NCBI GenBank assembly: GCA_024226335.1 | Contig: JAAELY010000176.1 | Span: 1 to 62,692, forward strand | From: a bacterium | GTDB lineage: Bacteria > Myxococcota_A > UBA9160 > SZUA-336 | DNA length: 62,692 nt | Direction of reading: 5' to 3' | Part shown: piece after piece, positions 57,255 through 60,823 of the stretch | Layout of the letters: each line of letters begins with the position of its first letter | Numbering within the stretch: the stretch's first letter is position 1 | Made by a program: the position numbers and the translations under genes | Notes under the pieces: generated by a model | What the model saw: only the letters and a program-made list of their open reading frames with translations | Database searches by the model: none | What the model was told of the DNA's origin: nothing

Positions 57255-57665
57255 TCAACTCTCGAGTCGGGTGATGGCTTCAGGATGGCAGGGAATCGAA
57301 TCCTCAATGGAGTACCAGGTCGATTTGCAGGATGTCCAGACGTGCCCCGTGATGTTCACATCGAGATTCCCCGCAAACCCCCCGAGCCTGACCCGAATAT
57401 CGTCGGGGTCTTGGGATGATCGAGCATAGAGAGGGGATCCACACGTGGAACAAAACGCCTTGAACTTCCCCGGCTGATGTTCAAACTCGGAAATCTCGTC
57501 TTTCGGTCCTTCGAACGTCCATTGAGATCTGTGGACCCTGGCATTTGCTGAAAACGCAGTCCCATTTCCGCGCCGACACTGATTGCAATGACAATAACGC
57601 ACGTCCCCAAAGGTTCCGGTCACGCTGAACTGGAAGGTTCCACACAAGCAAGTACCGGTTGACAT
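57255..57665 (-). CDS. GFA/CENP-V domain protein
   Basis: 136 residues. Zinc-binding pattern of the glutathione-dependent formaldehyde-activating enzyme family: CLCGTFQFSVTG, YCHCNQCRRGNGTAF, FCSTCGSPLYAR. Despite the family name, most members have no proven role with formaldehyde. Reads like a complete copy. ATG at 57665 with weak GGTGAG upstream. Confidence 0.9.
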   Translation of the reverse strand: MSTGTCLCGTFQFSVTGTFGDVRYCHCNQCRRGNGTAFSANARVHRSQWTFEGPKDEISEFEHQPGKFKAFCSTCGSPLYARSSQDPDDIRVRLGGFAGNLDVNITGHVWTSCKSTWYSIEDSIPCHPEAITRLES

Positions 57666-58011: not shown

Positions 58012-58833
58012 TCAGCTCGGCGCGTCGGCACACAATACATTCGACACCATTCGCCCCATGGTCGTGCCATCGCTGCTCAAATTCGCAAGCAGGGTCGTGA
58101 GAGTTTCGCGAAAACCGAGCTGCGTCTCCTCGGGCAAACCGCGAAGTCTTGGTCCGATCGGCGTGGAATAGGCCGCTTCTAGCGCGTGTCGCATGCCCCC
58201 ATCCACGGTGAAGGGAAGCCGTTCCTGAGTGATGCGGACGCCCTGGAATCCGGTTGCTTCGAAATGCTGACTCAGCTCAGACTCTGGCATGAAATCAAAT
58301 GGAACTCGCATGGAGTGGGTTAGTTCCGCTTCGTCGATCGATTCGAGAGCTTCACAGACTTTCCCAAAGAACTCGCACTCCGCCACCGGGCGCCATGTCG
58401 CCAAGATGACCTTTCCGCGTTTTCGCAGAACTCTGGCCATCTCTTCGGCTGCGGCGGACTTATCGGGAAAGAACTGGAATCCCTGCTGACAAACGACCAC
58501 GTCGACGGACTCGTCTGGAATCGCCAGCGGATGAGCTGGTGATTCGATGAACTCGACAGGTGAGCGAGCACCGGTGCATCTGTGTCGGGCCAAGCTGAGC
58601 ATCTCAGCGTTGATGTCGGCGCCGATTACCTTCCCCTCAGGACCGACGTGTTTCGCCAGTTCGGCCGCAACGATGCCGGTCCCCGTCGCCAGGTCCAGAA
58701 CGCATAAGCCATTCCACGGCCGAAACTCGTCGACGAGTCGGGCTGCCCAAGGTTCGAAGAGGATGGGTACCAGGATGTCGTCGTAGGCCGCAGCCACCGA
58801 CTGGTCACCAAAGCTGAATGCAGGCTTTTCCAA
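58012..58833 (-). CDS. Class I SAM-dependent methyltransferase
   Basis: 273 residues. TTG at 58833 with AGGAGGAG upstream. Motifs: VLDLATGTGIVAAELAKHVGPEGKVIGADINAEML (SAM loop and acidic strand), VVVCQQGFQFFPDKSAAAEEMARVLRKRGKVILATW. UbiE/COQ5-type methyltransferase with a C-terminal substrate part. Substrate not identifiable. It is intact, in contrast to the decayed copy at 55429-55873, to which it is not obviously close. Confidence 0.88.
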   Translation of the reverse strand: MEKPAFSFGDQSVAAAYDDILVPILFEPWAARLVDEFRPWNGLCVLDLATGTGIVAAELAKHVGPEGKVIGADINAEMLSLARHRCTGARSPVEFIESPAHPLAIPDESVDVVVCQQGFQFFPDKSAAAEEMARVLRKRGKVILATWRPVAECEFFGKVCEALESIDEAELTHSMRVPFDFMPESELSQHFEATGFQGVRITQERLPFTVDGGMRHALEAAYSTPIGPRLRGLPEETQLGFRETLTTLLANLSSDGTTMGRMVSNVLCADAPS

Positions 58834-59474: not shown

Positions 59475-60212
59475 CTACGAGCTTGCCTTCGAACCGCCGA
59501 TCACGGCCTCGCGATACTCTCTCCAGAACACTTCGGAGTTGGATAATCCGGATTCACGAAGGATTCGAAGATCCTCATCCAGCGTCTGCGGTTGGTCCTG
59601 TTCCTGCGCTTCAAGCTCGCCGAGGTACTGCCGGGTGGCGTCTGTGCTGCTGAAACGCTCGTCCTTCGCCGGGGCACGATCGGTTACGGAATTGATACGG
59701 ATCTCCTGAATTCGCTGCTCCACAGCTGGGGCCGCGGCTACCACGATATCCGCATTCAAGAACCAACCCCCCGGTTTGATCGACTGGACGATCGAATTCA
59801 GGACGGCCCGTTTCTCCAGAGCATCCAGATGGTGAAGCGCATAAGACGAAAAGGCGACGTCGAAAGTATTGGGCTTCAGGAGCGTCGCGGGCATGGATTG
59901 AAAGTCGGAAAGGACCCACTCGACACGCTGGCCAAGAGCACCGAGTCTGGCTTTTGCAAGTTCCATCATAGAAGCCGCACCGTCGATCGCGACCACTTCT
60001 GAATCTGGGTACGCCTCCAGGAATCGCTTCGAAAAAACGCCTGTTCCAGTTCCGAGATCGAGAGCCCTCAAGGACTGCGTCTGATGGAACGGAAGAACCT
60101 CCAAGGCAACATCGATCATCTTCCAGCGCAGAGGATGCATGATGTCCATATCGGCATCGTAGGTCTGCACGCGGGCCGGAAGATCGTATGCTTCTGCACT
60201 GTCTGAATGCAT
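59475..60212 (-). CDS. Class I SAM-dependent methyltransferase
   Basis: 245 residues from ATG at 60212 (AAAGGA upstream). RALDLGTGTGVFSKRFLEAYPDSEVVAIDGAASMMELAK, FDVAFSSYALHHLDALEKRAVLNSIVQSIKPGGWFLNADI: SAM-binding and post-core motifs complete. The substrate part is C-terminal. Adjacent to the selenoprotein gene on the same strand (24-bp gap). Confidence 0.88.
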   Translation of the reverse strand: MHSDSAEAYDLPARVQTYDADMDIMHPLRWKMIDVALEVLPFHQTQSLRALDLGTGTGVFSKRFLEAYPDSEVVAIDGAASMMELAKARLGALGQRVEWVLSDFQSMPATLLKPNTFDVAFSSYALHHLDALEKRAVLNSIVQSIKPGGWFLNADIVVAAAPAVEQRIQEIRINSVTDRAPAKDERFSSTDATRQYLGELEAQEQDQPQTLDEDLRILRESGLSNSEVFWREYREAVIGGSKASS

Positions 60213-60236: not shown

Positions 60237-60704
60237 CTATTCCGCTTCCTCTTCGATGATCCTGCCGAGCGCGCGGGCGGTCTGGCCCACCACTTGCTGG
60301 CAGTACTTCCGTCTACTGTCGCTCGCCTGGTAAAACGCCTTCACCTGGCTCATGTCCTGCCAGTCAACACGCGCGATGTCAGAGCAGTCTTTTCCACCGA
60401 ATTCCTGCGTGATTTCCTCGAAAGCCTTATCGAGCTTGTGCCCCAGCTTGAACATCGCGGGGGATTCCTTCTCGGATAGCCTTCCTCGACTGTACTGGCT
60501 GGAGATGCAGGCGATTCCTCCCAGCATTGCACCGCAGACACTCCCGGTTCCCGCGATTCCGCCACCGAACAGCCCGACGGCCTTGATGACGTCCGGATCA
60601 TCGACGCCCAGCTTCTCCTGTCCCACGGACAGAACAGCCTGGCTTCAGTGGAACGAGTCCTTCATCAGCTGTATGGCCTTCTTCTCCATTTCGTCAGGAC
60701 TCAT
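60237..60704 (-). CDS. C_GCAxxG_C_C family protein, probable selenoprotein (Sec20)
   Basis: ATG at 60704 follows GGAGG by seven bases. Codons run 19 residues (MSPDEMEKKAIQLMKDSFH), then TGA at codon 20 (60645-60647), then SQAVLSVGQEKLGVDD and on to a stop at 60237: 155 residues with the TGA read through, same frame on both sides. In the C_GCAxxG_C_C redox family the context is typically FNCSQAV: here the Cys position is TGA. The other family cysteines are present: SVCGAMLGG, KDCSDI and RKYCQQVV. I infer selenocysteine. A hairpin with the right spacing follows the TGA. If the TGA were a normal stop, the remainder would need the GTG at 60626 and would miss the first redox residue. Confidence 0.8.
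60608..60642 (-). promoter_or_regulatory. SECIS-like hairpin immediately 3' of the TGA
   Basis: Minus strand: CTGTCC and GGACAG (60618-60632) form a 6-bp stem with loop GTG. CCAG/CTGG pairs (60639-60642 and 60608-60611) extend it outwards with an internal loop. The loop starts 18 bases after the TGA, in the range known for bacterial SECIS elements, and its first base is G, as required for SelB binding in E. coli fdhF. Confidence 0.65.
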
Positions 60705-60823
60705 GGTAGTACCTCCAAGAGAGATGGGAACTCACCAGGCATCAGCGTACACCCGATCCTCGGCCCGCTTCAAGCTTCTTGCGATCTGCATATATCCGGT
60801 TCCAAACGTGGTTCAAGGACAAG

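Follow-up and report, generated by a model that had tools for sequence, protein, structure and literature searches.

The window analysed here is the whole 62,692-nucleotide stretch of a contig from a bacterium of the Myxococcota_A. Its minus strand carries a gene of 155 codons belonging to the C_GCAxxG_C_C family (Table 1). The earlier note had proposed an ATG start seven bases behind a GGAGG and left the strand unstated; both elements are present, on the minus strand. It had also described the frame as broken once, by a TGA at the first conserved cysteine of the family. This TGA is the only one in the frame, at codon 20, and F-H-TGA-S-Q-A-V of the window gene aligns to F-N-C-S-Q-A-V of the Cys homologues. 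Homology is unbroken on both sides of the codon, as claimed. The read-through product matches PF09719 from end to end (76.8 bits, cut-off 27; E-value 1.9e-21), with residues 18-148 covering profile positions 1-117 of 118. It also passes the TIGR01909 cut-off (56.5 bits; cut-off 47.4), and the homologues with TGA are likewise open and homologous on either side.

The three other cysteine motifs were correctly reported as retained and align with those of the Cys homologues. Eight columns are invariant in an alignment of 40 sequences: Sec/Cys20, G49, G54, C57, G58, G62, C107, and C135. The four conserved Cys/Sec positions and the GxxCGAxxG motif by which family membership is judged are thus all found in the window protein (Sec20, Cys57, Cys107, Cys135). 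No signal peptide is evident by eye. A gene caller had been expected to begin at the GTG at 60626 and to drop the active-site residue, and mechanical ORF calling did exactly this, returning a 129 aa frame.

Table 1. Features of the selenoprotein locus in the window.
Feature	Position	Strand	Basis or detail
Coding frame of C_GCAxxG_C_C selenoprotein	60237..60704	-	ATG 60704-60702, TAG 60239-60237, single in-frame TGA
UGA codon 20, predicted to be read as selenocysteine; first invariant family position	60645..60647	-	Frame and homologue alignment
Shine-Dalgarno GGAGG	60712..60716	-	7-base spacer to ATG
Cys57, GxxCGAxxG motif, invariant	60534..60536	-	Frame and alignment
Cys107, invariant	60384..60386	-	Frame and alignment
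Cys135, invariant	60300..60302	-	Frame and alignment
bSECIS region: UGA plus some 43 bases with DNA-level conservation relative to L057, hairpin fold	60602..60647	-	Folding and codon comparison
Upper stem of 8 bp with 3-nt apical loop GUG (60626-60624), 18 nt past UGA	60616..60634	-	Folding
Class I SAM methyltransferase	59475..60212	-	24 bases downstream of selenoprotein gene, same strand

A scan of 84,980 species genomes yielded 80 homologous loci. The TGA faces an invariant Cys column: twelve homologues from other genomes carry TGA at exactly the position of codon 20, about 70 have Cys there, and no homologue with a normal stop at this place was found. The nearest UGA homologue (L057) comes from a Gammaproteobacteria metagenome-assembled genome and is 81-82% identical at the protein level. 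Other close UGA homologues are L058 (Desulfocapsa), L059 (Bryobacterales), L060, and L061 (Syntrophales), while seven more (L066, L069, L074, L097, L113, L122, L125) share 24-31% identity. According to the record titles, the Sec form is spread over Acidobacteriota, Pseudomonadota, Thermodesulfobacteriota, Myxococcota, Nitrospinota, and Nitrospirota. A selA gene over the cut-off was detected in 11 of the 12 UGA-form genomes, versus 3 of the 10 Cys-form genomes that were sampled.

In the family tree the window gene groups with L057. The Sec/Cys label needs five changes, at least three of which are forced by well supported branches. Judging from the sequences, selenocysteine is predicted in no fewer than three distinct parts of the tree, always at one position. 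Its recurrence there marks this position as functionally central. A separate Sec clade consists of L066 (1555-2034), L069 (2446-2937), L074 (1715-2221), and L097 (3513-4019), from Syntrophus-like and Nitrospinota genomes; these genes have the motif G-U-T-Q, and their hairpin loop, GCUU, is conserved. L113 (5989-6420), L122 (5989-6420), and L125 (5989-6417) lie in a third part of the tree and likewise have UGA at the first Cys.

The sequence following the UGA folds into a hairpin. The 48 bases from the UGA have a folding energy of -22.9 kcal/mol (z -3.8), and none of 200 shuffles was as low. With longer flanks the z-score weakens to -1.6 and -0.9, which is expected of a short local element. The published rules for bSECIS elements ask for a loop of 3-9 nt, a stem of 4-16 bp, a G in the first two loop positions, a spacing of 16-37 nt, and a minimum free energy of at most -7.5 (PMC13188914). 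A bSECIS prediction had been suggested in the earlier note, and the window hairpin fits all four of these published constraints with its GUG loop, 8 bp, 18 nt, and the energy given above. The apical loop is itself the GTG that a gene caller would pick as a start, meaning that automatic annotation here begins the protein within the bSECIS loop and loses the active-site residue.

Comparison with L057 indicates that the hairpin region is conserved at the nucleotide level. The gene as a whole shows saturation at synonymous sites, with a dN of 0.126, yet in codons 21-35 13 of the 14 codons specifying the same residue are identical, versus 39 of 105 elsewhere (Fisher p 7.5e-5). When the window sequence is recoded synonymously, just 1% of the variants fold equally well. 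Across the family, the region after codon 20 folds better in Sec genes than in Cys genes (13 vs 70, p 9e-6, an optimistic value given that the sequences are related), and the bSECIS rules are passed by 12 of 13 Sec genes versus 20 of 70 Cys genes (p 2e-5). The close Sec homologue L058 fails the automatic bSECIS test although it keeps 7 of the 8 stem pairs of the window. For several of the more distant Sec homologues, hairpin strength does not clearly exceed that obtained by synonymous recoding. One pair (19-27) changed on both sides (U-A, G-C, G-U), which with four close sequences is not significant alone. Searches with SECIS_1 (RF00031) and full Rfam found no SECIS at the locus; RF00031 was silent in all control genomes too and is uninformative on bSECIS.

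The genome encodes the complete machinery that the earlier note had named as selA, selB, selC, and selD. The assembly (5.75 Mb in 556 contigs, 97.4% complete, 3.7% contaminated) contains SelA (514 bits), SelB (276 bits, or 301 with its neighbour in the frame), SelD (336 bits), and a tRNA-Sec (72.7 bits in Rfam; called by ARAGORN as tRNA-SeC with anticodon tca). These genes are spread over four contigs, and selA is present in 54 of the 60 genomes of the relatives search, the window's own genome counted. Decoding of selenocysteine thus belongs to the lineage as a whole and does not depend on any one contaminant contig. SelD (L023, contig C545:82897-83823, minus strand) is probably a second selenoprotein of the same genome: an in-frame UGA occupies its N-terminal active-site position (QLVPAGG-U-ARKLG).

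The window gene is accordingly read as a full PF09719 selenoprotein of 155 residues in which UGA codon 20 specifies selenocysteine (probability about 0.96). SelB and tRNA-Sec would decode this codon with guidance from the bSECIS hairpin that begins at the UGA itself, a step which the evidence strongly supports.

Selenocysteine in the C_GCAxxG_C_C family has been catalogued before, and the window protein, which shares a clade with L057-L061, is an additional example. The earlier note had stated that such forms have been annotated, which agrees with the name of TIGR01909, "(seleno)protein", and with the listing of the family in two reviews. Two Sec forms, 1 and 2, are on record (representatives MGD8741185.1 and WP_012158890.1); they go back to work on the Olavius symbiont in 2007 and to marine surveys of 2008 (PMC13188914). 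With the C-GCAxxG-C-C family (seleno)protein (PF09719/TIGR01909) the window protein, above both cut-offs, has the four invariant positions in common. Two narrower models are related. The HUGP/GUXX-star fusion selenoprotein NF045501 aligns at its positions 5-144 with window residues 1-139 (E-value 6.4e-13), and the name of this model suggests a His-Sec motif comparable to His19-Sec20; however, the window protein scores 48.8 bits, does not reach the cut-off of 325, and is without the second Sec domain. The DVU_1555 family C-GCAxxG-C-C protein NF045669 is the best NCBIfam match, at full length, but its 72.3 bits are below the cut-off of 103.

The AlphaFold2 model of the window protein is all-helical with a mean pLDDT of 96.2. 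A fold search placed it with split-Soret cytochrome c (PDB 1h21; Z 15.0, rmsd 3.6 over 140 residues), while the next chain had a Z of 4.8. The same entry, whose title names "A novel iron centre", was also found by sequence profile (E-value 7.5e-6). The two proteins share a fold, and split-Soret cytochrome c has Cys counterparts at Cys57, Cys107, and Cys135. It differs in having Ala48 at the Sec20 position and in its CxxCH haem motifs, of which the 155 residues of the window protein contain none. From EPR of split-Soret cytochrome c, Abreu et al. in 2003 reportedly proposed a [2Fe-2S]-like centre. In a limited literature search no statement of the link between the family and this fold was found; the link rests on public data. 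It offers a testable role, an iron or redox site, for an uncharacterised family and opens the way to comparing paired Sec and Cys forms. One family member is labelled "putative FeS cluster-binding" in a proteomic paper (PMC8322314), and in Clostridium ljungdahlii family members adjoin an aldehyde oxidoreductase cluster (PMC5640608).

It is very likely that the selenocysteine is one of four residues of a functional site. The helical protein would unite Sec20, Cys57, Cys107, and Cys135 in a single redox or metal site, of which Sec20 may be the most reactive or most exchangeable residue. The window protein would then be a small, probably cytoplasmic electron-transfer or redox protein, and some redox role is rather probable. 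An iron or other metal site is suggested by the modelled fold at somewhat short of even odds, the idea deriving solely from the match to 1h21. It is unlikely that Sec20 directly ligates an iron or iron-sulfur centre together with the three cysteines. If true, selenolate ligation of iron would have a natural example here, one that came about several times within a single ancient family as Cys was exchanged for Sec.

The strongest alternative is that Sec20, as a nucleophile, and one of the three cysteines form a reversible selenenylsulfide, making the protein a metal-free oxidoreductase of the thiol-disulfide type. This reading, at rather less than even odds, has precedent in bacterial selenoproteins, the majority of which are thiol oxidoreductases that have a Cys counterpart (PMC13188914). 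The replacement of one invariant Cys by Sec with three Cys left fits it as well, and split-Soret cytochrome c keeps the three cysteines without the first position, as for a separate nucleophile. However, invariance extends to all four positions together, the fold does not resemble that of thioredoxin, and the sole clear structural match is the entry titled with an iron centre. The metal-centre reading, in which Sec would be the fourth, exchangeable ligand, is slightly favoured by the modelled fold.

Readings in which codon 20 does not encode selenocysteine fare far worse. The UGA could be a true stop or a read error, leaving a pseudogene or a protein starting at GTG 60626; standard gene calling indeed gives that 129 aa frame and the assembly is fragmented (556 contigs). 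Against this, L057 has the same UGA despite saturated synonymous sites, the low dN extends to the part before the UGA, and 11 more homologues carry it. The GTG is the hairpin's apical loop, and the Cys homologues align well upstream of it. The earlier note had named reads with TGC or TGT as a possible refutation; the same TGA in an independent genome at 81% protein identity excludes a read error in practice, and this whole explanation is very improbable. Reassignment of UGA to tryptophan or another residue throughout the organism, under which a frame with a single UGA is also expected, is less probable still, as TGA ends 17 of the 33 large window frames, tRNA-Sec, SelA, SelB, and SelD are in the assembly, and homologues have Cys at this codon. 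Sequencing error, pseudogene, and changed genetic code were all dropped as excluded or very unlikely on the evidence of homologue UGA, dN, and machinery.

The selenoprotein gene was likely acquired horizontally, as far as sequence comparison indicates. Only 23 of 379 genomes in the phylum have PF09719, and no other member of the window genome's family is among them. The genome that carries the nearest homologue is labelled Gammaproteobacteria. Searches of viral contigs and plasmids returned distant matches or none. A large window protein of 1070 aa has only one partial match among 29 relatives and gave no guidance on where the contig belongs.

The downstream methyltransferase is possibly co-transcribed with the selenoprotein gene. 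One genome of the class (G012) contains a 71% homologue of it, and no C_GCAxxG_C_C protein was found there; the methyltransferase is therefore not an obligate partner. No conserved neighbours were found around L057-L062 and the other Sec homologues, where the adjacent genes include enoyl-CoA hydratase, TatD, FKBP, CobD, and glyoxalase. Since the neighbourhoods all differ, no functional partner can be named. Also near the selenoprotein gene in the window, on the same minus strand, are a GFA-domain protein (57255-57665) and a second class I methyltransferase (58012-58833).
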